Shown one piece after another: positions 3,937-55,123 of a DNA stretch of 64,000 nucleotides. The stretch is from Planctomycetes bacterium GWF2_41_51 (GTDB lineage: Bacteria; Planctomycetota; Phycisphaerae; Sedimentisphaerales; UBA12454): contig MHXZ01000087.1 in NCBI GenBank assembly GCA_001825665.1, positions 1 through 64,000 of the forward strand, written 5' to 3'. The position numbers and the translations under genes are program-made. Numbering within the stretch: position 1 is the stretch's first letter; every line of letters starts with the position of its first letter. Under the pieces are notes generated by a model. The model worked only from the letters and a program-made list of their open reading frames with translations, had not been told where the DNA came from and did not search any database.

Positions 3937-3976
3937 GGTTAATTTCCTAATGAGACATATCTTCCGAGGCACTAGT

Positions 3977-7137: not shown

Positions 7138-7145
7138 ACATTAGG

Positions 7146-19121: not shown

Positions 19122-19165
19122 TTGCGATTACACATCAAAGCGATTATATTGATTATACGGCTAAT
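19122..19165 (-). promoter_or_regulatory. 44-bp shared promoter/operator element, copy B
   Basis: Read on the minus strand it begins ATTAGCCGTATAATCAATAT and ends GCAA at positions 41-44. Identity with copy A extends outward (TTTACATA before it, CAAAAA after it). It lies between the divergent toroid/GH2 operon and the second LacI gene, pointing toward the operon whose start codon is 33 bp away. The internal TATAAT could serve as a -10. Confidence 0.8.
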
Positions 19166-19206
19166 TTAATATGTAAAATACAATTTGTAAAGAGCAATTC
19201 AGAAAA

Positions 19207-20440: not shown

Positions 20441-20460
20441 TAAGTTTAACGTGAAACTTA
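20441..20460. promoter_or_regulatory. LacI-type palindromic operator
   Basis: A 20-bp inverted repeat with arms TAAGTTT and AAACTTA and centre AACGTG; nine of ten base pairs match. It lies 37 bp upstream of the first tandem glycosidase-like gene. Its core TTTAACGTGAAA differs by one base from the palindrome at 7146-7157, so the same regulator may bind both. The rest of the 240-bp gap is AT-rich with no gene. Confidence 0.65.
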
Positions 20461-32998: not shown

Positions 32999-33035
32999 AT
33001 GCCTGATTCCTTAAATTAAATAATCTGAAAGATTA

Positions 33036-34496
33036 TTATTGGTAATCTTCACCGTTTAAGCTATGAACCACGGATTTCATCCATTGTTCCAATTCGGATT
33101 TCATTTCTCGAACTCGTTGGGGTTGCTGTGCTGATAAATCGTTATTTTCACCTATATCCTTTGCAATGTTATATAATTCCAGCGTAACGATCCCTTTTGT
33201 CTCGATCCGGTGTAGTTTCCATGGCCAATCCAGCCAAGCTGAATGGCCGGGGAATTCGTCATCTGGAAATTTTCTGTTCTTATTGGCATCTAAACATAAC
33301 CACTTGTCTTCAATTTGCTTGCCGGATTTTTGAGCGTCTAAAAGAACAGACATATCCTCATTGCCTGATATTCTAATAACCTCAGCAGGATAATGCCAGA
33401 AACCCATTGGTTTAGGTCGCGCTTTCATCTTTTTGTCAATCAAAGGGGCAAGGCTGGTACCATCCAGAGGCAACTTTTTGTCCGGTTTCGCTCCAATAAG
33501 CTCCATGATAGTCGGGTATATGTCGCTGGTATTGCATGGAATGTCTGTTGTTCGCGGAGTTTTGATGCGTTTAGGCCATTCCAAAATAGCAGGCACACGA
33601 AGACCTCCATCGTAAATTTCACTTTTATGACCGCGTATCCGGTTGGTACCTTTCAAGCCGCCGTTGTCGCTGCAATACCAAAGAATTGTATTTTCGTGAA
33701 TATTGAGCGTTCTCAATTCATTTCGTAGTTTGCCTAAAGCTCTATCCATACCTGTGATTTCGCCATAGTAATGCTGCAACTGTTCAGGTTGATCACTATA
33801 TAATGCCGCATCCTGTTCAATGGCTTTGAGCGGTCTGTGAGGAGAACCAAACCATACGACGGCTAGAAAAGGCTGGTCGGATTGAGAGTGCCTGCGAATG
33901 AAATCAATTGCAGCATCGACTGTTACCATAGAGCTTTCACCCTTAAACTGAATGGCACTGCCGTTTTTACTTAGTATGGGGTCATTATCAAAGAAATTCG
34001 GCGCCGATACCCATTCATTGAATCCGTAACCTCCGGGATTGACAGGGCTGTTTTTAAAGATGGAGCCAAGATGCCATTTCCCAAAGTGGCCGGTTACATA
34101 GCCTGCAGCCTTGAGCGTTTCAGCGATGGTCTCCTCTTGAGGGCGGAGGGAATAACCCGCTGTAAAACATCCAAATCGATTGGGATGACGACCTGTCAAT
34201 ACACTTCCGCGAGTAGGCGAACAAACAGGTGCAGCGGCATAGAAACGGTTGAAACGCAACGCTTCGGATGCCATTGCGTCAAAGTTCGGGGTTTTTAGAA
34301 CTGGATGACCGTTATAAGCCATGTCGCCCCAACCCTGATCGTCCGCCATGCAGAGAATGATATTGGGCCGACGGTTGTTGTTTTGTCCAAAATAGTTTAA
34401 AAAACCGTGGCCTGAAACAGGCCTGGCTATGGTACTTACCATGGCATAAGAGGCGGCACCTATAGATGCTTTTATTAAATCTCTTCTATTTATCAT
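33036..34496 (-). CDS. Tat-exported sulfatase (S1 family)
   Basis: The 486-residue product carries a twin-arginine leader (MINRRDLIKASIGAASY). Sulfatase features: metal-binding ADDQGWGD near 51-58, modification motif CSPTRG with the formylglycine-forming Cys92, GHFGKWHLG, and CSDNGGLKGTN. Its start overlaps the upstream sulfatase stop by 11 nt. The leader is nearly the same as that of the upstream sulfatase, pointing to duplication. It should remove sulfate esters from the glycan in the periplasm after Cys-to-formylglycine conversion; no maturase gene is in the window. The exact sulfate position is not predictable here. Confidence 0.92.
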   Translation of the reverse strand: MINRRDLIKASIGAASYAMVSTIARPVSGHGFLNYFGQNNNRRPNIILCMADDQGWGDMAYNGHPVLKTPNFDAMASEALRFNRFYAAAPVCSPTRGSVLTGRHPNRFGCFTAGYSLRPQEETIAETLKAAGYVTGHFGKWHLGSIFKNSPVNPGGYGFNEWVSAPNFFDNDPILSKNGSAIQFKGESSMVTVDAAIDFIRRHSQSDQPFLAVVWFGSPHRPLKAIEQDAALYSDQPEQLQHYYGEITGMDRALGKLRNELRTLNIHENTILWYCSDNGGLKGTNRIRGHKSEIYDGGLRVPAILEWPKRIKTPRTTDIPCNTSDIYPTIMELIGAKPDKKLPLDGTSLAPLIDKKMKARPKPMGFWHYPAEVIRISGNEDMSVLLDAQKSGKQIEDKWLCLDANKNRKFPDDEFPGHSAWLDWPWKLHRIETKGIVTLELYNIAKDIGENNDLSAQQPQRVREMKSELEQWMKSVVHSLNGEDYQ

Positions 34497-36072
34497 TGGA
34501 TATCCTGTAATATTGTTTAAGACTATGAAGTTCGCGTTTAAGTTCTATTATCTTGTCCATATAGTAAGGGTCATGATATCTGCTAACCATTTCATAAGGA
34601 TCACTGTTAAGATCGTAAAATTCCCATTCGCGTGTTTTATAGAAATGAATCAATTTATACCTTTGGGTAAATACGCCTTCGTGAGGAGCTACATTGTGCC
34701 CTTGAACATCGCAATAATGGTAGTATAAGGATTTTCGCCATTTTACTTTTTTACCTTGAAGATTCGACAAAAAACTTCGACCTTGAATATTATTTGGAAT
34801 ATCAACTTGTGCAATTTCAAGAAGTGTTGGTGCTATATCAATGTTTTGAGTAAGTTCTGAAAACGTTGTCTTGGGTTTTATAGTCTTAGGCCAGCGAATT
34901 ACAAAAGGCATACTTAGTGATTCTTCGTACATCCATCTTTTATCAAAAAAGCCGTGTTCACCAAGAAAAAGACCTTGGTCTGAACAGTAAATGATTACAG
35001 TTTCTTCGGCTATACCGCTTTGATCAACGTAATTTAACAGTCTTCCAATGTTTTCATCCAACGACGCTACACATTTGATGTAATCTTTGATAAATCTCTG
35101 ATATTTCCAGTTAATAAGCTCTTTACCATTAAGATTGGCCTTCTTGAATTTTTCATTTTCTAATTCATAGAAACTATTCCAGATTCTTTTTTGTTCCTGA
35201 TTCATGCGATTATAGTCTGAATCAGGTTTATCGCACATTCGCAAATCATTAATGTCGTTTGAATCGACGGGTTTAACCTGCAGGTCATAGCCGAGAAGCA
35301 TGTCTTTTGCAATGGTCATTTTCTGTTTTGTGATAGGACTTTGTCGGCCAAAATAATCATCAAACAGGGTAGGAGGTTGTGGAATATCATTATCCTCATA
35401 AAGATGAAGATGCTTTAAATTAGGTAGCCAAGGGCGATGGACGGCCTTGTAGTTACACATTAACATAAATGGTGAACCTGATTTTTCTTGCTGTCTCATC
35501 CAGTTAAGAGCAAAGTCCGTTATAATATCAGTGTTATAACCTTGTACTCTTCTTTTTCCTTTTTCATTTATAAAATCAGGGTTATAGTAGTGGCCCTGAC
35601 CCGGAAGTATGTCCCAATGATCAAAACCCGTAGGGTTTGAATGGAGATGCCATTTACCAATTATTCCAGTCTTGTACCCCGCTTTTTGAAGAAGCTTTGG
35701 AAAAGTTTGTTGTGAGCCATCAAAAACATCAGTATTGTTTTTTACACCGTTAATATGACTATGCTTGCCGGTCAAAATAGAAGCGCGGCTTGGACTGCAA
35801 ATAGAATTTGCGCAGGTGTTTTTTAAGAGGATAGCTCCTTCATTTGCGATTCGGTCAATATGAGGTGTTTTATTTATCTTGGAACCATAAGCACCTATAG
35901 ATTGACATGCATGATCATCTGACATTATAAACAGAATATTGGGACGACGCTTGTTATTATCCCCAAAATAGTCTAAAAAACCCCGGCCTGAAACAGGTTT
36001 GGTTATGGCATTGACTATCGCATAGGAGGCGGTTCCGATCGTTGCTTTTATTAAATCTCTTCTATTGGACAT
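34486..36072 (-). CDS. Tat-exported sulfatase (S1 family)
   Basis: The 528-residue enzyme has a twin-arginine leader (MSNRRDLIKATIGTASYAIV), SDDHACQSIGAYG for metal binding, CSPSRASILTGK with Cys92 as formylglycine precursor, GIIGKWHLHS, and YCSDQGLFLGEHG. The GEHGFFDKRWMYEESL stretch is typical of choline-sulfatase/iduronate-type S1 members. It is the first gene of a minus-strand operon (two sulfatases, then the oxidoreductase at 31787) and shares the 171-bp divergent promoter region with the sulfatase at 36244, where element C lies. Confidence 0.92.
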   Translation of the reverse strand: MSNRRDLIKATIGTASYAIVNAITKPVSGRGFLDYFGDNNKRRPNILFIMSDDHACQSIGAYGSKINKTPHIDRIANEGAILLKNTCANSICSPSRASILTGKHSHINGVKNNTDVFDGSQQTFPKLLQKAGYKTGIIGKWHLHSNPTGFDHWDILPGQGHYYNPDFINEKGKRRVQGYNTDIITDFALNWMRQQEKSGSPFMLMCNYKAVHRPWLPNLKHLHLYEDNDIPQPPTLFDDYFGRQSPITKQKMTIAKDMLLGYDLQVKPVDSNDINDLRMCDKPDSDYNRMNQEQKRIWNSFYELENEKFKKANLNGKELINWKYQRFIKDYIKCVASLDENIGRLLNYVDQSGIAEETVIIYCSDQGLFLGEHGFFDKRWMYEESLSMPFVIRWPKTIKPKTTFSELTQNIDIAPTLLEIAQVDIPNNIQGRSFLSNLQGKKVKWRKSLYYHYCDVQGHNVAPHEGVFTQRYKLIHFYKTREWEFYDLNSDPYEMVSRYHDPYYMDKIIELKRELHSLKQYYRISNDK

Positions 36073-36149
36073 TTTAAAAGCCTAAAATACTAGGTATATT
36101 TATTAATAGATGTAAAATTTATCTTTACAAAATATATTTTGGATTGTAG

Positions 36150-36193
36150 ATTAGCCGTATAATCAATTGTATTCGGTTTTTATATTATTGCAA
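36150..36193 (+). promoter_or_regulatory. 44-bp shared promoter/operator element, copy C
   Basis: Begins ATTAGCCGTATAATCAATTG and ends TATTATTGCAA, with GCAA at positions 41-44 as in the other copies. Located between divergent sulfatase operons, 51 bp upstream of the plus-strand sulfatase, toward which it points. The TATAAT at element positions 9-14 is a perfect -10 hexamer. Confidence 0.8.
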
Positions 36194-36243: not shown

Positions 36244-37716
36244 ATGAATGTGATTTATATAATAGCAGACCAGATGCGATGGGATGTGTTGGGATGTAAT
36301 GGGAATAAGATTGTAAAAACTCCCAATTTGGACCGGCTGGCAACGGCAAGTATAAATTTCTCATGCGCTTACAGCGGTAATCCTGTTTGTGTTCCGGCAA
36401 GAGGTATTCTCGCGACCGGATGTTATAGTCATAAATGTATGGATCCTTCTGCGCATAATTTTAATGGGGGTGAAATTTTATCACGAAATATTCACATAGC
36501 TAAACTTTTACATGAAAAAAAATACTGTAATTACGGCATAGGCAAGGCTCATTGTCTGCCATATAAAAAGAATCCTGGGTTTGATGTATATGAAATCGCG
36601 GAAGAAGGTAGAATTCCTTGGCAGCAATCTCTCGGAATGTTGGCCGATGATGTTAAAGAAGATTATTTAGAATATCTCGAAAAAGCAGGCTTTGGAAGGA
36701 TGCAACGGGCCCACGGAATTGGAAATAATGATCCCCGTGCAGGTCAGTCGCCTCTACCGATCGAACATTATGTAGATACTTGGGCGACTTCAAGAAGTCT
36801 TGAATTATTAAAACAGCACATCAGCGCGAATCCCAAAAAACCATTTTATTTGCAGCTTGGATTCGTTAAGCCGCATGCACCTTATGACCCACCTGCGCCA
36901 TTCGATAGAATGTATAACCCAACAAAAATCCCATTACCGTATGGTTCTTCCGTTGATCTTGATGACCGTAATCCAAATGCCAGACCTTTTATTCAAAACT
37001 ATATGATAAATCGTTTATCCGATATGGCAATTCAATACAGCAGATCGCATTATTTTGGTTTGATAACTTATCTTGACAGTCAGCTTGGAAGAATACTGGA
37101 TTTTATTGAAAATAATAATCTTTCAAATAATACAATGATAATTTTTACTTCAGATCATGGCGATAATCTTGGTGATCATGGGATTTTCTTTAAAAACAAC
37201 TTTTTCGAAGGATCTGTACATATTCCACTTTTACTTTCCGTGCCCGGTCTGAAAAAAAAAATTAATATAGAGACCCCTATCGGTCAGGAGGATATAGTAC
37301 CCTCCATTTGTGATGTTTTGGACATCGATCTTCCTAACACTGTCGACGGCAAGAGTCTTTTACCTTTGGTTGATGGCTGCCAAAAGCATAGGCCTTTTGT
37401 TATATCCCAGTACGGCAGCGGCGATAAAATGATATTGATGATACGTGATAAAAAGTTTAAATATTGTTATGCAAGATATGAAGCAACTGAAGAACTTTAT
37501 GATATGAGCTTGGATGTATATGATTCGCACAATCTTGCAATAGATGAGAATTACAAGACCCAGCTTATAGAAATGCGCAATACAGCGGACAAATGGTGCA
37601 TCGAAAATAGCCATGAACGGTTACTTGATGATACGGGTAATTTGTTAAAGGCGCATTTTGATATTAATGAGCATTTGGTAAATCCAAAAGATGTGATGGG
37701 AATTCGACAATGGTAA
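36244..37716 (+). CDS. sulfatase (S1 family), no export signal
   Basis: The 490-residue protein begins directly with the catalytic core (MNVIYIIADQMRWDVLGCNG), so it is probably cytoplasmic. The modification motif is CVPARG (Cys49), which keeps the required Cys-x-Pro-x-Arg pattern but has Ala where Ser or Thr is usual. TSDHGDNLGDHG supplies the second metal-binding region. It overlaps the next sulfatase by 7 nt (ATGGTAA). Cytoplasmic sulfatases would act on imported sulfated oligosaccharides, complementing the exported pair on the other strand. Confidence 0.9.
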   Translation: MNVIYIIADQMRWDVLGCNGNKIVKTPNLDRLATASINFSCAYSGNPVCVPARGILATGCYSHKCMDPSAHNFNGGEILSRNIHIAKLLHEKKYCNYGIGKAHCLPYKKNPGFDVYEIAEEGRIPWQQSLGMLADDVKEDYLEYLEKAGFGRMQRAHGIGNNDPRAGQSPLPIEHYVDTWATSRSLELLKQHISANPKKPFYLQLGFVKPHAPYDPPAPFDRMYNPTKIPLPYGSSVDLDDRNPNARPFIQNYMINRLSDMAIQYSRSHYFGLITYLDSQLGRILDFIENNNLSNNTMIIFTSDHGDNLGDHGIFFKNNFFEGSVHIPLLLSVPGLKKKINIETPIGQEDIVPSICDVLDIDLPNTVDGKSLLPLVDGCQKHRPFVISQYGSGDKMILMIRDKKFKYCYARYEATEELYDMSLDVYDSHNLAIDENYKTQLIEMRNTADKWCIENSHERLLDDTGNLLKAHFDINEHLVNPKDVMGIRQW

Positions 37717-39170
37717 AACCTGTGAATGTTATATTTATTTTTTCCGATCAACACAATCCAGGCTTTAGCGGCTGTTATGGAGGAATAACACGAACTCCAA
37801 ATATCGATTCTTTGGCGCAGGGCGGAGTATTATTTGAAAATGCGTATTCAAATTGTCCGTTATGTGTGCCATCAAGAGCCAGTATGTTCACCGGTCTTTA
37901 CGCACACGAAACGGCAAGTTGGGATAATACAACGCCGTATGATGGACGCATTCCGGGATTGGGTCATTATACTCGTGAAAATAATATAAAATTCACTACA
38001 ATAGGGAAATTGGATTTTAAACCTGGTGCTGATGTAGGTATTGATGACATTCGTTGTGTTCGCAACAGAGAAAGCTTAGATGTTGTTGGGCTTTTCAGGG
38101 ATAAGCCTCTCCCTCCTCGGAAAAAGATGCATATGGCTAGCCACTGGGGAGCTGGTCCTCGTGAGAATGAGGACTTTCTAAAGCACGAAAAAAAAGTTAC
38201 ACAAGAGGCAATCAATTGGATTCGAACTGATCGCCCCAATGATAAGCCATGGGTGTTAAATATCAATTATAGCAAACCTCATCCTGCCTGGCATCCTGAT
38301 AAGGAACTTTATAAATACTATAAAAATAAATTGACCAGTCTTGGCCCGAAATATTTTCAAAAATATGATAGCCTTTGCGAAGTTGATCAAAATCACAGTA
38401 CTCACACTTGCGGCTTTGTTTTGGATGATGATAAAGTATATGATTGCCACACTGCTTATCATGCTACGGTTGAAGAGGTTGATATTGAAATAGGTAAAGT
38501 CCTCACTTCTCTAAAAGAAGTCGGGATATTTGATGAGGTATTAATAATTTACACTTCCGACCATGGCGAGATGGCTCGTGCGCACGGCGCATGGGGTAAG
38601 TGTTCGATGCATGAAGATTCGGTCAGGATTCCCATGATTATACATGGTCCAGATGTGCCTGATAATAAGCGTATGACATCCTTGGTTTCATTGGTTGACA
38701 TTTTGCCAACAATATCCGACGCTCTTGGAATGGATACGTCAAATGATATAAAAGGGCGGTCATTATTGGATGTTTGTCAAAATAATAATACAGATAACAG
38801 ATATGTTTTTAGCGAGTCTCATTCAAATGGAATCATAGCGGGCTCTTTTATGGTAAGAAGCGGAGATTGGAAGCTTATTGAATATGTCGGCTATCAATCT
38901 CATTTATTTAATCTTGCGAAAGATCCAAATGAGATGAATGATCTCGCTCCGCAGGCGGCAAATGATTCGCAATTGCTGCAAAAAATTAATGAATTACAGG
39001 CTATTTTACTAACGATTTGCAGTCCTGAAAAAATTGATGCAAAAGCTCGTGCGGACCAACAATATTTGCGAGATAGTCTTGCTGTATCCGGTAGATTATA
39101 TGACGAACTTGAGTTAAGAGGGTTTCAGCGGATTCGAGATAAATTAATTCCGCTGCCTGAATATTCATAA
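37710..39170 (+). CDS. sulfatase (S1 family), no export signal
   Basis: The 486-residue protein begins MVKPVNVIFIFSDQHNPGFS without a signal peptide. Motifs are CVPSRASMFTG (formylglycine-forming Cys52), IGKLDF, and YTSDHGEMARAHG for metal binding. It is translationally coupled to the preceding sulfatase. Its 3' end overlaps the convergent lyase gene by 46 nt. The substrate is probably a sulfated sugar in the cytoplasm. Confidence 0.9.
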   Translation: MVKPVNVIFIFSDQHNPGFSGCYGGITRTPNIDSLAQGGVLFENAYSNCPLCVPSRASMFTGLYAHETASWDNTTPYDGRIPGLGHYTRENNIKFTTIGKLDFKPGADVGIDDIRCVRNRESLDVVGLFRDKPLPPRKKMHMASHWGAGPRENEDFLKHEKKVTQEAINWIRTDRPNDKPWVLNINYSKPHPAWHPDKELYKYYKNKLTSLGPKYFQKYDSLCEVDQNHSTHTCGFVLDDDKVYDCHTAYHATVEEVDIEIGKVLTSLKEVGIFDEVLIIYTSDHGEMARAHGAWGKCSMHEDSVRIPMIIHGPDVPDNKRMTSLVSLVDILPTISDALGMDTSNDIKGRSLLDVCQNNNTDNRYVFSESHSNGIIAGSFMVRSGDWKLIEYVGYQSHLFNLAKDPNEMNDLAPQAANDSQLLQKINELQAILLTICSPEKIDAKARADQQYLRDSLAVSGRLYDELELRGFQRIRDKLIPLPEYS

Positions 39171-41239
39171 TGAGGAAAATGTAGTGTAACCGAAGCATCT
39201 GAAACATTCCCAATCATAGGTATAATCATTTTTATTCCTTTGTTATTGGTGGACTTAATATCCACACATACCTTATCTGATGAATCGGATGACATTTTCG
39301 TATCAACGATTTCAGGTGCATCATTAGGATCAACCAACAACAGCCATGCAAAAGTTTGTGTATTTTTTAATTCGGCAGTGTAAACCGCCGTACTATTAGG
39401 CAACTTTATATTTGATGTTGAACTATACCAGCCTTGTATAAAAGGTTTTTCCTGACCCTTTACAATCGCCACATTCCAATCAAAAGATGATATCGGAATA
39501 ATACGCAGATTTGCTTGGCCTTTATCTATGGATGTTGCTGATTTATCTTCGCAGATGACGTGACAATTGGGATGATAATGCCACAGGGCTTGTATCTGGT
39601 GCGGCTTTTCGAGATTTATCCGATCGACTACTATCCAGAAACGATTGCGAAGATACAACACGGCTCTTGTATGAGAGATATTATCCTCTATATCAGCAAA
39701 TCCTTCAATATATTCTCCCCTGGTAAAATCGTAATCAGCATTTGTGATGAAAGCATTTGTCAGAGGTTGATCAACAACGCCTGTTTTAGGCTTTTGTCCC
39801 TTGCCATCTATCAGGATAACATTATGAGAGATGGATGAAATAAAGAAATCACGCCAGGGATATTCTTGGCCGCCTTTAAACCCGACATATGTGAACCGAC
39901 CCGAATCTATCAGTAAATCCTGACCATAGGCACTAATAGATAGATGCAGTTTGTCGGCATGACGGTGTCCGGCACCCCATGGACCAACATCGAAAAATGC
40001 CCAATGAGCATTTGCGTCCCAGCCATTTCGCATTATAGTCTGTCCAGCCCATGGATAGAAAACGCTCAACAATTTTGGTTTTTCGCCCTCATTCTCATTA
40101 GTAATAATGTATGTCCAATCATTACGATAATAGGTTTCATTGACATTACCAAGGAGTTTGCGAATATAATTATAGTCTGAATCATTATTCATGGGACCAT
40201 ATCCTCTGGGACTTTGAATATACGCCATATAATCCAGCATCAAATTAACCCGTTCGTTAAATTCGACAGGCAGCGGTTTGTTGATATGTTTGTATATTTC
40301 CGCAAATACATAAAAATTCCGAAATGCAACTTCATGATAATGCGAGGACAATTCCTTCTGGACTCCATCAGGATATACTTGTTCCATCAAGCTCTCTGAC
40401 ATAATTTTTTTAGAATAATCAAGAAGATTTTCGGATACCTTAAATTCAGGGAAGGCTGCCGCCATTTGTGCCAAACCCATTAGGCTTATTGTCAATTGAT
40501 TGCCCCTTTTGGCATGGAAATTCCGGACACAATGCAGATAATTGGGTACGGAAGAAAGCATTAATATCTTCACATCTGGTGCCAGCACATCATATAAACT
40601 ATAAAATACTTTAGGCCAGATTGCTGCCCGACAACCGGCTTCTATACGGGACCATTGTCTCTTATCTGTGGCATCATATTCTTGCCCTTTGCCCGAATAT
40701 GGATTCGATATTATCCAATCACGTAAATCTTCATTTATGCGTTTTGCATATGCCAAATTATTATATTTAAAATATGCATCAGCTAAAAGGATTAAATGAT
40801 AATGTCTATTCAAAGCCATTGCCCATTGAAAATCATTATTCGGGCTGTAATTCCAATTGAGCTTCCCTTGAGCATTTCGGGGTACGGTTCCTTGAACATT
40901 TTGAAATGTAAACACGTCTTTAAGGATTTCCTCAACTTTCGAGGATGTATCATTAACCATATCCATCCAATTGATGTTTTTTTTTCGTAGCCATTCACCT
41001 GAATTGCACGTGCTATAATAATTTAATAATTCTTGGCATGCGTTTACTTTGTCTTTTTGCTGCCAGGCACTTTTAACTTTCTCTAAGCCTGGATAATTAT
41101 GATCAAGAGCCGTAAAAAGGACGTCAATTTTTTCAGGGTGTGCCAAGCTGAATTTTTGCAATTCATCTTGATCGCAAATATCAGAAAAAAGAACTTTGGA
41201 AAAAGTTAAAATAACTACAAAAATGAAAATAGCCTTCAT
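39125..41239 (-). CDS. heparinase II/III-family polysaccharide lyase
   Basis: The 704-residue protein has a signal peptide (MKAIFIFVVILTFSKVLFS), an alpha/alpha-toroid N-terminal half and a beta-sandwich C-terminal half. Lyase features are RGNQLTISL (Asn247 region), ELSSHYHEVAFRN (His300-Tyr301-His302) and GHRHADKLHLSISAYG (residues about 424-439). These match heparinase II/III-type enzymes that eliminate at uronic acids in heparin, chondroitin, alginate or related glycans. Product ends would be unsaturated uronyl sugars, the substrate class of the GH105 enzyme at 45250. It is third in a minus-strand operon after the BNR_4 protein and a sulfatase. Confidence 0.88.
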   Translation of the reverse strand: MKAIFIFVVILTFSKVLFSDICDQDELQKFSLAHPEKIDVLFTALDHNYPGLEKVKSAWQQKDKVNACQELLNYYSTCNSGEWLRKKNINWMDMVNDTSSKVEEILKDVFTFQNVQGTVPRNAQGKLNWNYSPNNDFQWAMALNRHYHLILLADAYFKYNNLAYAKRINEDLRDWIISNPYSGKGQEYDATDKRQWSRIEAGCRAAIWPKVFYSLYDVLAPDVKILMLSSVPNYLHCVRNFHAKRGNQLTISLMGLAQMAAAFPEFKVSENLLDYSKKIMSESLMEQVYPDGVQKELSSHYHEVAFRNFYVFAEIYKHINKPLPVEFNERVNLMLDYMAYIQSPRGYGPMNNDSDYNYIRKLLGNVNETYYRNDWTYIITNENEGEKPKLLSVFYPWAGQTIMRNGWDANAHWAFFDVGPWGAGHRHADKLHLSISAYGQDLLIDSGRFTYVGFKGGQEYPWRDFFISSISHNVILIDGKGQKPKTGVVDQPLTNAFITNADYDFTRGEYIEGFADIEDNISHTRAVLYLRNRFWIVVDRINLEKPHQIQALWHYHPNCHVICEDKSATSIDKGQANLRIIPISSFDWNVAIVKGQEKPFIQGWYSSTSNIKLPNSTAVYTAELKNTQTFAWLLLVDPNDAPEIVDTKMSSDSSDKVCVDIKSTNNKGIKMIIPMIGNVSDASVTLHFPHYEYSGSGINLSRIR

Positions 41240-41254
41240 TGTTTAAATCTTTCC

Positions 41255-42697
41255 TTAATTCAATTTGTTTGATTTGTTAAGCAAGGCACTCAAGTTTTCG
41301 ATAAGTTTTGCATTTTCTGGTTTGTTGGCTATATTGACATTTTCATCCGGGTCGATTTTATGGTCAAACAACATTTTAGTTTCAGCATCCCATTCAGTAT
41401 AGAGATAACGGTCAGTCTTGACTGCCTTTGCGCCATTCCAATCAATGTAAGCGGCATCCTTCCAATGCTGTTTTGGATTTTTTAAAACAGGAACAAAGCT
41501 TTTTCCATTTAATATATGGCTGGAAGGAAGAGATAAGCCGGCCAGTTCACACAATGTTGGATAAATATCCACAAATTCCACAAGAGCATTAGTTCGTGTG
41601 TTTGTTTTAGAACCAGGTGCACGAACAATTAAAGGCACGTGAATTGTATTATTAAGCATATTATGCTTGCCCCAAAAATTGTGTTCCCCCAGGTGCCATC
41701 CATTATCGCCAAAAAGAACGACTATCGTATTTTTATCCAATTCAAGAGAATTTAACTCATCAAGTATTTTCCCAATTAATGCGTCAATATAACTAATACA
41801 GGCATAATATGCATGCCGTGCATCTCGGTGGAATTTTTCTTCAGATGGCCATCCGTCAATTTGGCTGTATCTTTTAATCTCTGATGAATTATGACACTTT
41901 GATGGTAGATTAACAGGTGAATATCTGTTATCTGCAATATCAATTTTGGAAGGATTGTATAGATTGAAATATTTTTTTGGAGCATTAAATGGAAGATGCG
42001 GCCGCGTAAATCCGCATGCAAGAAAGAATGGAGATTTTCCTTTTTTTAACCGACGCAAATCCTGAATTGTTTTTATAGCTACTTTGCCATCTCCGTATGC
42101 TTCATCTGGAACTTCCGGAGATTCTTTATATGGCCCACGTCCCTTTGCTGAAAGGAGATTTTTTGAATTCGGATCAAGCCAAATTTTATCAAAGTTTTCT
42201 TTTAAATTTCCATGTGGGCTCCATGGAGTTTCACTCCAATTTAGAGCGCTATCTTCAGCATAATGGAAAATTTTTCCATTAGAGATTGTATGGTATCCGT
42301 TGGATTTTAAGTGCTGCACCACCGTAATGGCATAGGGGGCATCTTTGTCTGCTCTCGATTCAGCATCTATAAAACGTTTTGATTTAAAATTCGGACGAAT
42401 CCCAGTCAAAAGACTTGCACGTGAAGCGCCGCATACTGGAGCCTGGCAATATGCGCGGCTAAATAAAACACCCTTGGATGCGAGTTTATCAATATTAGGA
42501 GAGATTACCTGTTTATGGCCATAACAACCTAAATGAGTACAAAGATCATCAACAGAAATAAATAAAAAATTTGGTTTCTTTTTAGTTTGAAATTTTAAAA
42601 AATTATTGGCAGCGAATGTTTTTGAAGCAATAATACCACTACTCACTATTAACATTTTTTTTAAAAAATTACGTCGTGATAACGCATTAAATCCCAT
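41255..42697 (-). CDS. Tat-exported sulfatase, iduronate-2-sulfatase-like
   Basis: The 480-residue product has a twin-arginine-type leader (LSRRNFLKKMLIVSSG). SVDDLCTHLGCYG binds metal, and PVCGASRASLLTG carries the formylglycine-forming Cys89 in the CxAxR variant common among iduronate-sulfatase-like members. GDNGWHLGEHNFWGKHNM follows. The start overlaps the upstream BNR_4 stop by 11 nt and has AAGGAA before it. Specificity for 2-O-sulfated uronic acid is suggested by similarity of motifs only. Confidence 0.9.
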   Translation of the reverse strand: MGFNALSRRNFLKKMLIVSSGIIASKTFAANNFLKFQTKKKPNFLFISVDDLCTHLGCYGHKQVISPNIDKLASKGVLFSRAYCQAPVCGASRASLLTGIRPNFKSKRFIDAESRADKDAPYAITVVQHLKSNGYHTISNGKIFHYAEDSALNWSETPWSPHGNLKENFDKIWLDPNSKNLLSAKGRGPYKESPEVPDEAYGDGKVAIKTIQDLRRLKKGKSPFFLACGFTRPHLPFNAPKKYFNLYNPSKIDIADNRYSPVNLPSKCHNSSEIKRYSQIDGWPSEEKFHRDARHAYYACISYIDALIGKILDELNSLELDKNTIVVLFGDNGWHLGEHNFWGKHNMLNNTIHVPLIVRAPGSKTNTRTNALVEFVDIYPTLCELAGLSLPSSHILNGKSFVPVLKNPKQHWKDAAYIDWNGAKAVKTDRYLYTEWDAETKMLFDHKIDPDENVNIANKPENAKLIENLSALLNKSNKLN

Positions 42698-44048
42698 TTC
42701 TTATTCCTTGATTATCATATTTTATAATTTTATTCTTCGAGAATACCCACAATCTTTGTTTGAAATCTGTAAAACTGTCATATCTTCCTTGGAACCAAAT
42801 AACACATATTTTATGTTTATGGTTATGGGGAACGAAAGGTCGAAGATTATCGACATCAGTATTAAACGTAAGCTGTTTCCAGTCCCATGTTTTATTTGCA
42901 TCTAAAGTTTTGCCTTGAAATACCTGATATCGGCCTGTTTTGTTGGGGTTACCTGTACGAGGATCGACATTGCAGGAAATAAAAACGGTATTGACATCTT
43001 CGGGGTCAATTGTGATACCGCCTGCATAATGATTCTGCGACTCATACAGACGTTTTCCGGCAAAAGCAATTTGCTGCTGATCCCATTGCTTTTTTAGAGG
43101 ATTCCATCGCGCATAGCGATATCGCAGATCATTTCCAATTTCATGATCAGCAGAGTTAATAAATGTTGCTATGGGATTTCCCTGTTTGTCATATTCTAAA
43201 TCCCACACCCAGCCGCGGCCTTCGGTGTTTCCATCATAAATCAAGGTGCCGTCTGAAGGTAATAAGGGACTTTCTTTCACTTGCCCCATTGATTTTATTT
43301 TGGTTTCATTAGTTGTATAAAAATTTCCTCCTTTATAATAAAGGTGATAAACGTTGTTTATGGGCATGTTTAGAGGATGGCCATCAGTGTAAAGCAAATC
43401 AATTCTGTCAATCCCATTGTCTGCATATTTGACATAAGGCCGAGTTTTGTCATCACCTGACTTGATTAACACAAATGGCTCATACCAGCTCTGCGCATTA
43501 TTGTCAGAATATTGAATATTCGGATTCCAACCAATTATGCGAGAAAAATTGTAAATGCGATTATTTTCTCCTGATAACTGAATCAGGTTACAATAGGTTG
43601 CTTTTGCTGGAGTTACAAATATCTTTTCTGGCAGCCAACAATACCAATTTTTTGTTTTGTCAGCAATTCGCCAATACCATTGCTTCTCACGATTATGTTT
43701 GGCGTAGCATGCAAGAAGTTGGCCGTTGTTGAGCTTTAAAAGTGCAGGATTGTCATGGTCGTCTTTGCTTTGCCATGAACTTAGCGGATATGCCAGTCGA
43801 TTCTTGCTTTTCGTATTATATACATCAACACGTGCAACGCCTTGCGAATCGAGACTTCCGATAATTATATTTTCATCATCGATAATTGCTCGTTCGTCAT
43901 TAAACCATGTCCATGCACCATCAGCGGCCAATTGTATAATTTGATGCTTTGCCTTGAGATCGCTCACTAAATTCAAACAGACAGCAAATGCAAAATACCA
44001 GCATACAATATTAAAAGTCAATTTGGATTTTATCATAAAATCTTTCAT
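42687..44048 (-). CDS. secreted BNR_4-repeat protein, candidate polysaccharide lyase
   Basis: The 453-residue product starts at ATG 44048, which overlaps by 4 nt (ATGA) the stop of a sulfatase remnant; this coupling decides the start (44036 is an alternative). A signal peptide region spans about residues 5-33. The mature protein is a BNR_4-type seven-bladed propeller (AADGAWTWFNDERAI, QSKDDHDNPALLKL, NRIYNFSRI, WVWDLEYD). Ulvan lyase families PL24 and PL25 have this fold, with His in a DDH-type strand, so the protein could be a lyase for a sulfated glycan. Other BNR_4 proteins are sialidase-like or unknown, so the function remains a hypothesis. Confidence 0.75.
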   Translation of the reverse strand: MKDFMIKSKLTFNIVCWYFAFAVCLNLVSDLKAKHQIIQLAADGAWTWFNDERAIIDDENIIIGSLDSQGVARVDVYNTKSKNRLAYPLSSWQSKDDHDNPALLKLNNGQLLACYAKHNREKQWYWRIADKTKNWYCWLPEKIFVTPAKATYCNLIQLSGENNRIYNFSRIIGWNPNIQYSDNNAQSWYEPFVLIKSGDDKTRPYVKYADNGIDRIDLLYTDGHPLNMPINNVYHLYYKGGNFYTTNETKIKSMGQVKESPLLPSDGTLIYDGNTEGRGWVWDLEYDKQGNPIATFINSADHEIGNDLRYRYARWNPLKKQWDQQQIAFAGKRLYESQNHYAGGITIDPEDVNTVFISCNVDPRTGNPNKTGRYQVFQGKTLDANKTWDWKQLTFNTDVDNLRPFVPHNHKHKICVIWFQGRYDSFTDFKQRLWVFSKNKIIKYDNQGIRNGI

Positions 44049-44173
44049 GATGTTACATAAACGTACCATTGCGTTAATTTTTTCGAGAACTCCTGCTGAA
44101 TGTTCTTATAATTTACATTTTTCACAAGATTATTCAATTCATAAGGATCTGCGGTTAAGTCAAACAAATGATG
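44045..44173 (-). pseudogene. C-terminal remnant of a sulfatase
   Basis: Minus-strand translation reads HHLFDLTADPYELNNLV and continues to QEFSKKLTQWYVYVTS and a stop at 44045. This is the typical C-terminal signature of S1 sulfatases (LFDL...DP-E-NNL). The catalytic part is missing and the frame is closed by a stop immediately upstream at 44174-44176. Its stop overlaps the BNR_4 start, so a complete sulfatase once headed this operon. Confidence 0.7.
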
Positions 44174-44268
44174 TTATTCAGACAACTCCCTAAGATTTCT
44201 GAGTAGATCTGTCCAAATATATTTTTTCACATTTAGTCTTTACATAATTAAAAATATTTGTACAGTAG

Positions 44269-44312
44269 ATTAGCCGTATAATCAATATAATTTGGCAAAT
44301 TCAATATTGCAA
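44269..44312 (+). promoter_or_regulatory. 44-bp shared promoter/operator element, copy D
   Basis: Begins ATTAGCCGTATAATCAATAT and ends AATATTGCAA, with GCAA at positions 41-44. It lies in the divergent region between the lyase/sulfatase operon and the TauE/SafE operon, 41 bp upstream of the latter's start and pointing toward it. The four bases before it (GTAG) match copy C. Confidence 0.8.
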
Positions 44313-44352
44313 TTAAAAAAGGATTTTTTTTAGAGAAATTTCAGAAGATTAA

Positions 44353-45240
44353 ATGACTCTTGATTTATTTATAATTTTAGGGGCCTCTTTCATAGCTTTA
44401 ATTGTTGGTGGTCTAACGGGCATATTTGGTATAGGCGGCGGTTTTCTAACAACGCCGGCACTAATGATTTTTTTGGATATACCGGGACCTATTGCAGTGG
44501 GAACTGGAATAGCGATGATGTGTTTTACCAGCAGTTTTGCAATATATAAAAGACGCGGCTCCGATACAATAAATTTCAAATTGGCCTTCATTCTCGCTAT
44601 TGCCAGTTCTATAGGCGTTATAGTTGGTATGTATTTCTTGGAAAAACTAAAACATGTGCAGCCATTGGTAATTATGGGCAAAGAGCATATAGCAGTTCAA
44701 TATATTTTATTATTGGTTTTTGTATTTCTGTTGTTAGGCATAGCAATAATTATGATGATTGATTTTTTAGCTGGCAAGGATAAAACAAATCCACATATAG
44801 GATGGTTTTCAAAAATTCCTTTTCCTCCTTATATTCAGCTTAAATTTTTGCATGTGCCGACATTGCCATTAATCCCTGTTCTCCTTTTGGGAACAATAAT
44901 TGGTATTTTGACTGGTTTTCTTGGGATTGGAGGCGGAGTGATTTTGTTGCCTGCGCTGATATATATGATAGGCCAACAAGTTCCAAAAGCAGCTGGTACA
45001 AGTTTAATGATAGTATGGTTTTCAACTTTGGTAGGTGTAACGGGGCATTTACGAAGCGGCAACGTTAGTATTTTTCTGCTGATAGCGATGCTGGCCGGTG
45101 GTCTTATTGGTACACATTATGGTACGGTTATCGGATTGAAAATGCATGACCATAAATTACGCTTTTATTTTTCTTTCGTTGTGGCCGCTACAGTATTAAT
45201 TGTTTTATTCAAAATAATCAATATAACTTTTTATAATTAA
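44353..45240 (+). CDS. TauE/SafE-family anion exporter
   Basis: The 295-residue membrane protein shows the internal duplication of the family: GIFGIGGGFLTTPALM near the N-terminus and GFLGIGGGVILLPALIY in the second half, with about eight hydrophobic helices. Family members export sulfite or organosulfonates or carry other anions. In an operon with GH105 and next to sulfatases, exporting a sulfur anion released during sulfated-glycan breakdown is the simplest reading. Element D precedes it, and GH105 follows after 9 bp. Confidence 0.88.
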   Translation: MTLDLFIILGASFIALIVGGLTGIFGIGGGFLTTPALMIFLDIPGPIAVGTGIAMMCFTSSFAIYKRRGSDTINFKLAFILAIASSIGVIVGMYFLEKLKHVQPLVIMGKEHIAVQYILLLVFVFLLLGIAIIMMIDFLAGKDKTNPHIGWFSKIPFPPYIQLKFLHVPTLPLIPVLLLGTIIGILTGFLGIGGGVILLPALIYMIGQQVPKAAGTSLMIVWFSTLVGVTGHLRSGNVSIFLLIAMLAGGLIGTHYGTVIGLKMHDHKLRFYFSFVVAATVLIVLFKIINITFYN

Positions 45241-45249
45241 AGGAATCAG

Positions 45250-46380
45250 ATGGAAATTCGATTTTTGAGAAGTGGTCTTATAATTTTCTCATTATTTGCA
45301 ATCTCTGCTGATGCCTCATCTCGGTTCAGTGCTGAAATGTATACATCAAAGATAATGTCGGTTATGCAAGCTGTTGCTGACTGGCAGATGAGCCAACCTG
45401 ATGACCCAAACGTAAGTGATACGGGTTGGATAAATGGCGTATTTTGTGCAGGTCTTGTAGAGTTAGCAAAAATTTTGCCTGACAGCAAATACATGACAGA
45501 AATGAAGAGGACAGGTGAAAGAAATGGTTGGAAAGCCGGTCCCGATAAATACAATGCTAATGATCATACCATAGGTCAGATGTATCTCGAATTGTATTGC
45601 ATCTACCGTGATCGAGCTATGATAAAACCGTTGCGTAAGCAGTTCGATTATATTCTTGAAAACCACACTCCGGCCGATATTAAAAATGAAGAGGATCGCT
45701 GGAGTTGGTGCGATGCCTTGTTCATGGCGCCGCCAGTATGGGCGAAAATGGCCCAAATAACCAGTGATAAAAAGTACCTTGAATTCATGGATAGAGAATT
45801 TACGCTCACAACAGAAAAACTTTACGATGCAAATGAACATTTATATTTTCGTGATGATCGGCGCAAAATTGAAAGAACTGCCGAGGTAAAAAAAGTGTTC
45901 TGGAGCCGCGGCAATGGTTGGGTGATGGCCGGGGTTGTGAAAGTCATTAAAGAATTACCGCCAAACTTCCATGCAAGAGACCGTTATTTAAGAATCTTTA
46001 AAGAAATGGCTGCAAAACTCGCGGCTCTGCAGCAGCCTGATGGCCTTTGGAAGTCAAGTCTACTGGACCCCAATGGTTACCCTTCTAAAGAAACCAGCGG
46101 CACAGCACTTTTCTGTTATGCATTTGCATGGGGAATAAACCAGGGCATACTTGATAGGACGACTTATCTGCCTGTTGTTGAAAAGTCATGGAAAGGGCTT
46201 GTCGAATGTGTCGAATCTAATGGTAAGTTGAGATATGTTCAGCGTTCAGGTGCGGCTCCCAGAAAAATGATCGACGACCCTAACCCCAAATATGGTATCA
46301 GATTTGGGATCGGTGCATTCCTGCTTGCCGGAACGGAAGTTTATAAATTAGCTTTAATAAATGAAAAAAAACGTATCTGA
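45250..46380 (+). CDS. GH105 unsaturated glucuronyl/galacturonyl hydrolase
   Basis: The 376-residue protein starts after AAGGAA. A possible signal sequence covers residues 1-22. The alpha/alpha-barrel has GH105 hallmarks: NANDHTIGQMYLELY (Asp105 region), RWSWCDALFMAPPVWAK (Asp155, likely general acid), KVFWSRGNGWVMAGV and ETSGTALFCYAFAWG. These enzymes hydrate and remove the 4,5-unsaturated uronic acid left by polysaccharide lyases. Its presence supports a lyase pathway (heparinase-type at 39125, possibly BNR_4 at 42687) on a uronic-acid-rich substrate such as ulvan, rhamnogalacturonan or a glycosaminoglycan. Confidence 0.92.
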   Translation: MEIRFLRSGLIIFSLFAISADASSRFSAEMYTSKIMSVMQAVADWQMSQPDDPNVSDTGWINGVFCAGLVELAKILPDSKYMTEMKRTGERNGWKAGPDKYNANDHTIGQMYLELYCIYRDRAMIKPLRKQFDYILENHTPADIKNEEDRWSWCDALFMAPPVWAKMAQITSDKKYLEFMDREFTLTTEKLYDANEHLYFRDDRRKIERTAEVKKVFWSRGNGWVMAGVVKVIKELPPNFHARDRYLRIFKEMAAKLAALQQPDGLWKSSLLDPNGYPSKETSGTALFCYAFAWGINQGILDRTTYLPVVEKSWKGLVECVESNGKLRYVQRSGAAPRKMIDDPNPKYGIRFGIGAFLLAGTEVYKLALINEKKRI

Positions 46381-46440
46381 CAACAATATCCTGCCAAATG
46401 AATAAAATCTTAGATGTAAAACCACAGTATGGAAGCAATT

Positions 46441-47673
46441 ATGAAAAAAGATGTACAATGTGAACGTCAGATAGTTCGTTCACTCGCTGAAATATTAGCA
46501 GAACATTCTAAAGAAAAAGAAAACGAGCGAATTATTCAAAGATGGAAAGATGTAAATGCTCTACGTAAACCTGATCGTGCTCCGGTTTGGTGCAGACCAG
46601 TAGGATGTTGGAAGGAATTATTGCCGCAGGAAGCACTTAAATGTAACGATCCATGGCTAAGGGGTTTAGAATATAGATTTCGGCAGTTACTTATAAAAAA
46701 GGAAATTGGCGACGATGAGCCAATAATGCCTTATTTTGAAGTCAATGCCATATTTGATGTGAAGCCGGCGAATATCTGGGGAGTTGAAGTTGGAAAACAT
46801 AAGCCGACTTCTGATGGCGGAGCATGGGCTTATGACCCGCCTTTAAAAACTGAAGCTGACTTTGACAATCTTATTGTGCCGAAACATTCATATAATAAAC
46901 AGGCCACTAACGAATTGTTGGAAAAAACTCATGAGTTGCTTGGCGATATTATGGACGTTCGGCTCCAATATGGCCCGGATTTCGATAGCGCAACAATGGG
47001 AACCGCTGCCGCCGACCTTCGCGGGCTTGAGCAGATGATGATGGATATGATTGCCCAGCCGAAGTTGATGCATCGTCTTGCAAAATACCTTCTTGAAGCA
47101 CAGCAGGGAAAACTTGATATATGGGAAAAAAGCGGCATGATTACGCCAAACAATAACATGCCGATGCTTTTAAGCGATCCGATTGGAAGTTCAAAAGCTG
47201 ATGGCTCATTTTCTCTTTCAAATTGCTGGTGTGCCGCAAATTCACAGGAATTTGATCAGGTCTCAGCCTCGATGTGGGAAGAATTTTGCCTTAATTATCA
47301 AAAACAAATATTCAAACGATTCGGGTACGTATGTTATGGATGCTGCGAAAATCTGGCCAAAAAATTAGATGGTGTGCTTTCGATACCTAATTTGAGAATA
47401 CTTGTATGCAGTGCCTGGACCGGGCTTGATGCAGTACTGGCCAGGGTTGATAAAGATTATTGCATAATGTGGCGGCAGAAGGCAAGCGATGTTGTTTTTC
47501 CGGACGATATAAAAAAGATACGTCAAGACCTTGAAGAAGGATTAAAAAAACTCAAAGGGCAATATTTCCAGGTGGTTTTAAGGGAATTGCAGACACTGTG
47601 CGATCACCGAGACAGATTGCATGCTTGGGCAGATATCGCTAAAGAATTAGCAGCTAAATATGCTAGCTTCTAA
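46441..47673 (+). CDS. URO-D-superfamily-like protein
   Basis: The 410-residue protein starts at ATG 46441, with GGAAG just upstream (ATG 46429 is an alternative). Layout and motifs (PDRAPVWCRPVG, RLQYGPDFDSATMGTAAADLRG, VCYGCCENL, LVCSAWTGLD) fit a distinct, longer branch of the uroporphyrinogen decarboxylase superfamily common in Planctomycetota and Lentisphaerae. GCCE stands where methyltransferase members have HxC, so metal binding by Cys is likely. It closes the TauE-GH105 operon. The reaction is unknown; it is unlikely to be a heme enzyme given this setting. Confidence 0.75.
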   Translation: MKKDVQCERQIVRSLAEILAEHSKEKENERIIQRWKDVNALRKPDRAPVWCRPVGCWKELLPQEALKCNDPWLRGLEYRFRQLLIKKEIGDDEPIMPYFEVNAIFDVKPANIWGVEVGKHKPTSDGGAWAYDPPLKTEADFDNLIVPKHSYNKQATNELLEKTHELLGDIMDVRLQYGPDFDSATMGTAAADLRGLEQMMMDMIAQPKLMHRLAKYLLEAQQGKLDIWEKSGMITPNNNMPMLLSDPIGSSKADGSFSLSNCWCAANSQEFDQVSASMWEEFCLNYQKQIFKRFGYVCYGCCENLAKKLDGVLSIPNLRILVCSAWTGLDAVLARVDKDYCIMWRQKASDVVFPDDIKKIRQDLEEGLKKLKGQYFQVVLRELQTLCDHRDRLHAWADIAKELAAKYASF

Positions 47674-47845: not shown

Positions 47846-48751
47846 TCATTTCTTGTGTTCCAGATATAGTTCTCTGTACATTTTTGGTGCTAATCCGTGA
47901 AATCGTTTAAAAACGCGCGAAAAATGATATGGGTCATTAAATCCAAGGCTGTATCCGATTTCATTGACGGATAAACCCGAAGTAAGAAGTATAGCGGATG
48001 CTTTATTCATTTTAAGATTCATGATATATTCATGAGGTTTAATTTTGCCGTATTGACGGAACAGCCTTGCCATATAACGAATATTAACCGCGCAGGCGTT
48101 TGCGACTTCGGAAGAAGAAAAGATCTTTGTAAAATTATCATCAATATATTTTTTGCATCTTTGATAAGTTTCCTTAGATTGTGAAAAATCACTTGTTGAA
48201 AAGTTAATATTAGCCGCCTGCCTAAGCATTAAAATTCTTAGCAAATTGCAGCTGATTTGTTGCGAAAAAGGGGCTTTTTCAATTCCTGTTTTCATAATCG
48301 CCCTCAAAATGTAAAGAGTTTCACTTTGCGAAGCAACATCAATAACGTATTTTGAGGCTAAGGTACTTTGTTCAAAAAGTAGCGAGGCTTCGCATCCGGT
48401 AAAGATTATAAAAATATGTTCAAGCGGATTTGAGGTGTCACTTTGATAAAAGTGAGGGCTTTGTGGAGTGAAGCCGGAAAGTATTCCCTGTTTTAAAGGA
48501 AACGTTTGTGAGTTTATTGAAAAAGTTCCTTTCCCGCTTATTGTGTATTTTATAACATAATAAGGATAGCTTTTACGATTAATTATGTAATCCGGAGCAC
48601 ATTTTTCACATCCTCCGCAGACAATTGCCAGCTCTTTTTTGAAGTTCGGCTCGGTCTCGAAGTAGAAATATTCAGCTTTCAGGACGTGGCCGGGCAGTCC
48701 GCGAACATATTTGCGTTTAATTATATTGCTGAAATTTCTCTTTTTAGTCAT
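47846..48751 (-). CDS. AraC-family transcriptional regulator
   Basis: The 301-residue protein (ATG 48751; a TTG at 48763 is possible) has an AraC-type N-terminal cupin-like ligand domain with CGGCEKCAPDY and a C-terminal double HTH (IFSSSEVANACAVNIRYMARLF; LSVNEIGYSLGFNDPYHFSRVF). It is divergent from the amino-sugar-type operon, starting 115 bp away, and is its likely activator. No obvious repeat site is visible in the gap. Confidence 0.9.
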   Translation of the reverse strand: MTKKRNFSNIIKRKYVRGLPGHVLKAEYFYFETEPNFKKELAIVCGGCEKCAPDYIINRKSYPYYVIKYTISGKGTFSINSQTFPLKQGILSGFTPQSPHFYQSDTSNPLEHIFIIFTGCEASLLFEQSTLASKYVIDVASQSETLYILRAIMKTGIEKAPFSQQISCNLLRILMLRQAANINFSTSDFSQSKETYQRCKKYIDDNFTKIFSSSEVANACAVNIRYMARLFRQYGKIKPHEYIMNLKMNKASAILLTSGLSVNEIGYSLGFNDPYHFSRVFKRFHGLAPKMYRELYLEHKK

Positions 48752-48866
48752 ATGAGATACCAAAGTTCCTTTTGTCCATTATTTTGTTACTTCTGGCTAT
48801 GGATGTCAACATTAAACTGCTTTAATATTAAAATTTAGTTTCAATAACTCAGGAAAGGGTCAGAAA

Positions 48867-53463: not shown

Positions 53464-53793
53464 CATATAATATCCGACCAATCTTATCCCAACTGTGCAG
53501 TGCCAAAAAATGCGCGCTGCACCAGGCGCTGTAGCATACCGCCGCGAGGAGTCTCGCAATTGAAATTTTCAAAAGCGAAGTGAATAAACAGTTAAGAAAC
53601 AACTTGCAATTTTGCCAGAATTATTGCTAATTGAGGCAGGATTTCAGGAGGATTTACAAAATATTATGAAACCCTTCTGGATACATTAACTAGACAAGTA
53701 GTCTACTCTCATCTGGAGAGTCTTTCCAATAAACTTCTACGAAAATGTGACTGTCATATCGAAATTTTTGAAACCGTCGCATATGTTTTCATA

Positions 53794-53880
53794 TCTTCCG
53801 CCCTGACTTATCCAGAGGTAGTCTACCTTTTATTAGCATATTGTCTTCCGCCCTTTCGTGTCCAGAAGTACTTTACTTTT
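53794..53880. repeat. two-copy degenerate direct repeat, 50-bp period
   Basis: TCTTCCGCCCT followed by TCCAGA and GTA...CTTT-ATT recurs at 53794 and 53844. The two copies match well at both ends and less in the middle. There is no third copy, so it is not a CRISPR. Confidence 0.5.
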
Positions 53881-54036
53881 ATGTTGCACGCGTATATACA
53901 CGCAATAGGTGCAATACAAGGCAATGTGGTGCAATATTTGCAATGATTTTTAGAAGCTACTTGCAATTTGTCGTGAATTGTAGCTTACTGTATTCAATGG
54001 AGTTACGAAAAATACGACATTTTGGAGTTAAATTAT

Positions 54037-54078
54037 ATCACACCCGTGAGGTCACAAGTTCGAATCCTGTATCGCCCA
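54037..54078 (+). other. 3' half of a tRNA (tRNA-Val-like), possible att remnant
   Basis: From an ATCACAC anticodon-loop-like start (CAC would read Val) through variable loop AGGTC, T-arm ACAAG-TTCGAAT-CCTGT and 3' acceptor ATCGCCC plus discriminator A. The 5' half is missing. Integrases often recombine exactly at the anticodon loop and keep the 3' half of a tRNA, so this is a candidate attachment-site scar. Confidence 0.5.
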
Positions 54079-54168
54079 ATAAGTCATTTAAGGCTTTTCG
54101 CCCAGTATATTCAAAAAGCTTGACAATAATTGCAATAACTAAAATACTACGGAACTTAGATTTTCGAT

Positions 54169-54210
54169 GCGCCCGTAGCTCAATTGGATAGAGTCACGGA
54201 CTTCGAATCC
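54169..54210 (+). other. 5' half of a tRNA-Arg(TCG)-like sequence
   Basis: GCGCCCGTAGCTCAATTGGA is a canonical tRNA-Arg 5' acceptor plus D-arm; the D-stem closes with GAGT. ACGGA-CTTCGAA gives an anticodon loop TCG, but the 3' anticodon stem (TCCCC) no longer pairs fully and there is no T-arm or 3' acceptor. It is therefore a truncated tRNA gene and not functional. Confidence 0.55.
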
Positions 54211-55123
54211 CCAAGTCCCTTCATAAGTAGTGTATCTACAACATCTTACTCCTCATTTTTTGAGGCAGAATGAGGTTTTCAAGTGATTAACAAGTGAACA
54301 AAAAGTCTATTAACAACTGGTTTATCACTGGCGACTGACGCATTTTTGACGCATAGGTAATAAAAGAAAATAATTATATTATATACACTTTGCTTACTTA
54401 CTAATCATTGTGAATCACTTATATTCCAATTGGTATTACTACTTGCGCGTTGTAAAAACTTCTTTGGCAGCTTTGCTTTAATCGCGGATGACATCGCGAG
54501 AATTTTCAAATCCGTCGTATTGGACAGTTTTGTATATTGTAATATTGATTTTTAGTGGTATGTATTATATAAGAAAACATAAGCTAAAATCCATTTTGTT
54601 TTTGTTAAGCTGCTGTTGGCGATTTGGCCAATGCAAGAATTGTGCATCAAGACAGCAATTCTGATAATCCATTGAATCTGGAAAGCTTGCAATTAACTAT
54701 TTATGGGAAGCGAGTTCCTGGTTTTTATCTTTAAAGGCTTTAGAAAGCAGTATTAATTTTAAAAGCGGAAAGCATCTAATGCTCGCTATTATAAGTATTG
54801 TAAACACGAATAATAAGGTAAGATAATTTTTAATAGAATGATCGTTGCACTCTCCCTGTGTATAAGCTATCTAAGAGAACAAGAATCTTTTATAGCAAGA
54901 TTAAATTTTATGGAACTCTAATAATTCGGAAAATTGAGATACCGTCAAAAGACGGGATGACAATTATTAGAGGTTACCTTCAATTAACAAAAGTAAAAGA
55001 TATGGTTGCAGATAGTTCGTTGTATTCCACAGGGACGGAGTGCAGAAATTGTAAAGTATTTATCAGGATTTGCTAATACAAATCTGAAGCGATTATAACA
55101 GCAAGGACCGTTCAAAAGTTCGT

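Follow-up and report, generated by a model that had tools for sequence, protein, structure and literature searches.

Most LacI-family regulons are local and autoregulated, their operators being even palindromes centred on CG that lie mostly 30–140 bp before the gene start, and more than three quarters of the local regulators in published reconstructions control their own gene (PMC4052901). The hinge leucine of LacI-family proteins is tied to operators with a central CG (PMC2329647). The locus studied here follows these local regulons in having the regulator gene within the sugar locus and in a CG-centred even dyad that is predicted at the transcription start of both its own and the catabolic promoters; it departs from them (PMC4052901) in that the predicted operator dyad, ATTAnnCGnnTAAT, is imperfect and rich in A and T, and in the recognition helix of the proposed regulator, SNIAVGHV, which does not follow the usual T-V-S pattern. 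The pLS20 conjugation switch likewise has two opposite promoters sharing a short control region (PMC4207663), whereas here the predicted −10 boxes stand on either side of one operator, facing each other, and the locus has this arrangement four times. Sulfatase-rich polysaccharide genes of the PVC group, such as those of the Kiritimatiellales, likewise combine many sulfatases with glycoside hydrolases (PMC6388578); by its gene content, the present genome probably comes from that group too. Overall we read the system as a local LacI regulon of an ordinary kind, whose duplicated promoter-operators form an unusually clean set. Its 44-bp element is likely to be a duplicated promoter-operator module with facing promoters and one LacI dyad, the repressor being most likely the LacI-family protein encoded at 19207 (LacI 19207).

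The window, that is, the whole 64,000-nucleotide stretch analysed, holds four copies of the element (A to D), all of them intergenic and confined to 38 kb. On the strand opposite to that of the first reading, each copy contains a predicted sigma-70-like promoter followed by the dyad:

6505 to 6548, plus strand: copy A; minus-strand TTGCAC at 6548-6543, 17 bp, TATATT at 6525-6520; dyad ATTAGCCGTGTAAT at 6505-6518
19122 to 19165, minus strand: copy B; plus-strand TTGCGA at 19122-19127, 17 bp, TATATT at 19145-19150; dyad ATTATACGGCTAAT at 19152-19165
36150 to 36193, plus strand: copy C; minus-strand TTGCAA at 36193-36188, 16 bp, TACAAT at 36171-36166; dyad at 36150-36163
44269 to 44312, plus strand: copy D; minus-strand TTGCAA at 44312-44307, 17 bp, TATATT at 44289-44284; dyad at 44269-44282

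An earlier note, made from the sequence alone, had given these four positions and strands and had placed GCAA at element positions 41-44 in every copy; all were found as described. The 18-bp core ATTAGCCGTRTAATCAAT (element positions 1-18) is the same in the four copies save for position 10 (G in copy A), which is not one of the symmetric positions of the dyad. Positions 19-40 are variable, and an invariant run of four columns in such a variable stretch appeared in about 5 of 100,000 trials with independent sequences of the same composition. Within the window, the 17-bp core at up to three mismatches gave 5 matches against 0.30 expected. A genome-wide pattern search gave, at zero or one mismatch, just four matches in the whole 4.83-Mb assembly, all of them the copies in this locus. 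At three mismatches a pattern search of the whole genome found 22 matches versus 24 for the reversed control, and among the three-mismatch matches beyond this locus, most of which lie in long open frames, none had GCAA at the element spacing. With leave-one-out matrices, the left-out copy scored 34–43 bits, versus 6–10 (maximum 10.2) at the highest-scoring position elsewhere in the window. A chance origin of the four copies is excluded.

Beyond this genome, no orthologous locus was found among 13 family genomes, and the best LacI match in the order, outside this genome, was 33% identical. The core was absent from the other family genomes save for two one-mismatch matches (L076 and L078), which were set aside as lying in long open frames and lacking GCAA. 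A search of 392 genomes of the phylum gave only background matches with two or three mismatches outside this genome. In GTDB, the core also occurs without mismatch in 49 further contigs, which were rejected, as they carry no GCAA at the element spacing; several core matches in Flavobacteriaceae have flanks common to each other (probably coding) and not to the element.

The copies are similar well beyond the core. By blastn between copies, A and B are 81% identical over 90 bp, B and C 83% over 52 bp, C and D 82% over 56 bp, and B and D 77% over 70 bp. The earlier observation that A and B match outside the element is correct, but the 5′ side aligns in all copies and not in these two alone. As the copies are homologous, they most likely descended from one control region by duplication and do not represent four independent sites or tests. 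Their mean pairwise identity is 97% in the dyad block and 83% in the TTGCnn hexamer, and falls to 50% in the spacer and 48–59% in the flanks. The four diverged copies allow the selected parts (hexamers, spacing and dyad) to be told apart from the drifted ones. Two gene relics lie beside the copies:

6824 to 6904, plus strand: relic of a TauE/SafE gene start beside copy A, 77% identical to 44350-44431
44105 to 44170, minus strand: relic of the C-terminal part of a sulfatase; between copy D and BNR_4

The match of the first relic, 44350-44431, belongs to an intact gene preceded by copy D. The second relic is on the side on which, at copy C, an intact sulfatase gene follows, and sits in the leader of the BNR_4 operon, downstream of copy D. 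The relics suggest that blocks of genes travelled or were duplicated together with the element and that parts of them were lost afterwards; they indicate how such a regulon gets built through copying of a control region. As a more tentative extension, the duplicated unit may have been a compact, portable cassette of about 90 bp, consisting of two facing promoters and a shared LacI operator, that wired new divergent gene pairs into the regulon while the neighbours were swapped or lost. The homology of the copies and the duplication and deletion visible in the relics would also be expected if the copies were a non-functional repeat or the remnant of a mobile element carried along by duplication of a locus segment. 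We consider this very improbable: outside the core, identity between the copies is down to 48–59%, whereas core and GCAA have hardly changed, every copy is intergenic, and there are no copies elsewhere in the genome.

The promoter on the opposite strand accounts for the fixed position of GCAA, as TTGC is its reverse complement and the constant spacing is then the distance from the −35 to the −10. The −35 hexamers of copies A to D (TTGCAC, TTGCGA, TTGCAA and TTGCAA) are followed by a 17-bp spacer and the −10 TATATT at element positions 21-16, after which come G and then ATTAnnCGGCTAAT; in copy C the better −10 is TACAAT after 16 bp, a one-base shift relative to A, B and D. The retention of the spacer length while spacer identity has dropped to half speaks for the promoter reading. 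The −35/−10 scores of copies A to D are 8, 9, 9 and 9 of 12, each modest when taken singly, and the predicted promoter of copy D was also reported independently by the promoter scan. Copy A reads in this direction into GH31 (start 6398, minus strand) and copy B ends 41 bp ahead of the start of LacI 19207. Copy C sits between the sulfatase operons starting at 36072 (minus) and 36244 (plus), and copy D between the BNR_4 operon (44069, minus) and the TauE-GH105 operon (44353, plus).

It had been suggested earlier that the TATAAT within the element (positions 9-14) may double as a −10, in which case it would serve the rightward genes and GCAA would belong to a 5′ leader or to another protein site. 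In copies B, C and D the TATAAT makes a perfect −10, and these copies lie 32–50 bp ahead of rightward genes. Copy A has TGTAAT instead, the TATAAT of copy D was not reported by the promoter scan, no conserved RNA structure turned up in the leader (prediction gave no consensus pairs), and the fixed position of GCAA is left without explanation. The opposite-strand TATATT fits better, and we give the rightward TATAAT only a slight chance of being the −10. TTGCAA as a rightward −35 was likewise dropped, because in B and D it would lie too near the start codon.

A second predicted promoter, of the form TTTACA/TTGACA, 15–17 bp and TAnAnT, faces the first and overlaps the left edge of the element:

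6481 to 6507, plus strand: facing promoter of copy A; TTGACA, 15 bp, TAAATT; weak spacing
19163 to 19191, minus strand: facing promoter of copy B; TTTACA, 17 bp, TAAATT; towards 17959-19089 and GH2
36124 to 36152, plus strand: facing promoter of copy C; TTTACA, 17 bp, TAGATT; towards the sulfatases at 36244 and 37710
44239 to 44266, plus strand: facing promoter of copy D; TTTACA, 16 bp, TACAGT; towards TauE and GH105

The scores in copies A to D are 10, 9, 9 and 9, a score of 9 at that slot having a chance of 0.03 per copy. On its facing side, copy A has only the TauE relic. The overlap with the left edge makes it probable that one operator controls both divergent transcripts, and to judge from their sequences both promoters may be in use. 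The variation of the facing spacing among copies and the one-base shift of the −10 in copy C are counted against the module reading.

Between the two promoters lies the dyad ATTAnnCGnnTAAT, exact in all four copies. The earlier description of a LacI-type operator with a central CG is supported as a prediction. The dyad is imperfect, with five of seven half-site pairs and two inner positions off, and alone it is not rare in sequence (7 matches vs 4.7 expected at up to one mismatch). The conservation of the core reaches beyond the dyad, which we also count against the best explanation. The dyad centre lies 8 nt past the predicted −10 TATATT in copy B, the same in A and D, and one base further in C. 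Two LacI-family genes are found in the locus:

19207 to 20256, plus strand: LacI-family regulator P0001 (LacI 19207), the proposed repressor; Pfam LacI HTH and Peripla_BP_3
7203 to 8243, plus strand: LacI-family paralogue P0002 (LacI 7203); Pfam LacI HTH and Peripla_BP_3 at 7152/7203

LacI 19207 retains the leucine in its hinge, RQLAGK; its recognition helix is unusual and its specificity cannot be predicted from it. The dyad centre of copy B is 48 nt ahead of the start of LacI 19207, within the 30–140 bp range of autoregulatory sites, and its location in that gene's own promoter suggests autoregulation. For comparison, we searched upstream of 40 LacI-family genes from this genome and its order and found a CG-centred dyad (6 or more of 7 pairs matching) no further than 110 bp away in 15 of them, against a mean of 0.95 and a maximum of 5 in shuffles. 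The promoter −10 ends 8–14 nt before the dyad centre at several of the loci (L128, L113, L126, L139, L133 and L127), with the layouts TTGACA-17-TATGAT-9 nt at L128, TTGACA-17-TACTTT-10 nt at L113 and TTGACG-17-TATTTT-12 nt at L139; the layout of copy B is TTGCGA-17-TATATT-8 nt. Another LacI gene of this genome and its relative (L133 and L112) each have a pair of GCATTAnCGnTATTG-type dyads in the upstream region, spaced by about 150 bp, which suggests looping.

Since the element stands in front of degradation genes and one repressor gene and nowhere else, LacI 19207 probably runs the 38-kb locus. It had already been named as the possible regulator, and with copy B in its own promoter it is the likeliest candidate. 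The same module might instead be run by LacI 7203 or by both proteins jointly, which we find unlikely. Both genes are in the locus, the proteins are 34% identical over their length, and copy A is upstream of LacI 7203. Copy A is, on the other hand, about 650 bp away and does not abut the gene, the TauE relic lying between them, and the recognition helices (THTTVSLV in LacI 7203) differ at most positions. The promoter of LacI 7203 furthermore has another dyad at the usual autoregulatory place, 51 nt before the start, which makes this protein less likely as the element's regulator. Sites of this second type are:

7144 to 7159, plus strand: second operator type GGTTTCACGTGAAAGT, in the LacI 7203 promoter
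20443 to 20458, plus strand: second operator type AGTTTAACGTGAAACT, ahead of the 20497 operon, directly after TTGACG-N17-TATATT

The promoter-then-operator layout of the 20443 site is the same as in the 44-bp element. Taken alone, sites of the second type are no commoner in the window than chance predicts (4 vs 3.7 at up to two mismatches). The operator of LacI 7203 is probably another one, GTTTnACGTnAAA, and the simplest assignment would pair LacI 19207 with the 44-bp element and LacI 7203 with the GTTTnACGTnAAA sites. An odd palindrome, GTTTACGGTAAAC, is found at about 7160, just after the 7144-7159 operator.

The core also resembles an AraC-family half-site. The E. coli araI1 half-site is TAGC-N7-TCCATA, and TAGC-N7-TCMATA is exact in copies A, B and D, with one mismatch in C. 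The core might then be read as the half-site TAGC-N7-TCAATA, used by the AraC-type protein encoded at 47846-48763; its gene is 3.5 kb from copy D and its best NCBIfam match, scoring below the cut-off, is AraC itself. At up to two mismatches, however, the half-site pattern is at chance level in the window (129 vs 128). Each copy has one TAGC-N7-TCAATA with no second half-site at a fixed offset, the intergenic region of the AraC gene itself is without the element, and the core overlaps the −10 and the start, an unusual place for an activator. We regard regulation by this protein as improbable and retain LacI 19207 as the preferred regulator.

Read in its own orientation, the element has on its leftward side GH31, LacI 19207, the sulfatase-sulfatase-Gfo/Idh operon and the BNR_4-sulfatase-heparinase-like operon, and on its rightward side the relic beside copy A, the toroid-like protein with GH2, the sulfatase pair and TauE-GH88/105. 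The predicted targets other than LacI 19207 are:

3977 to 6398, minus strand: GH31 glycosidase in two frames (5850-6398 and 3977-5908), copy A
17959 to 19089, minus strand: 376-aa protein with a weak alpha/alpha-toroid match, perhaps truncated at its N-terminus, facing promoter of copy B
15228 to 18080, minus strand: GH2 protein, facing promoter of copy B
31787 to 36072, minus strand: operon of sulfatase, sulfatase and Gfo/Idh, copy C
36244 to 39170, plus strand: two sulfatases, facing promoter of copy C
39125 to 44069, minus strand: BNR_4 protein, sulfatase and heparinase II/III-like protein, copy D
44353 to 47673, plus strand: TauE/SafE permease, GH88/105 hydrolase and 414-aa protein, facing promoter of copy D

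The GH31, GH2, sulfatase, TauE/SafE and GH105 genes proposed earlier are all retained, but that list was too narrow, as more operons and LacI 19207 itself belong to it. The predicted single regulon spanning the locus stands in outline, with sites only within the 38 kb. One predicted repressor is linked to seven or more predicted transcription units in this uncharacterised sulfated-polysaccharide locus, for which an exact predicted operator is now given. The enzyme families would suit the degradation of a sulfated polysaccharide containing uronic acids. A LacI-family repressor, most likely LacI 19207, would bind the single dyad covering the start region and, once bound, block both facing start sites and hence also its own gene; a breakdown product of the polysaccharide would release it. 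The identity of the repressor, its binding, the repression and the effector are here inferred from sequence. We regard the result as a useful annotation and claim no new principle.

Some further features of the window were noted. In the long intergenic stretch 53464-55123, a tRNA-like fragment, GCGCCCGTAGCTCAATTGGATAGAG..., occurs at about 54200, with no tRNA call by ARAGORN. The split of GH31 near 5850-5908 may stem from a frameshift, from inactivation of the gene or from an error in the assembly. A URO-D-type gene is found in pieces at about 3200-3972 (minus strand), the open reading frame 3361-3972 covering about half of the profile and more matching fragments lying before 3361.
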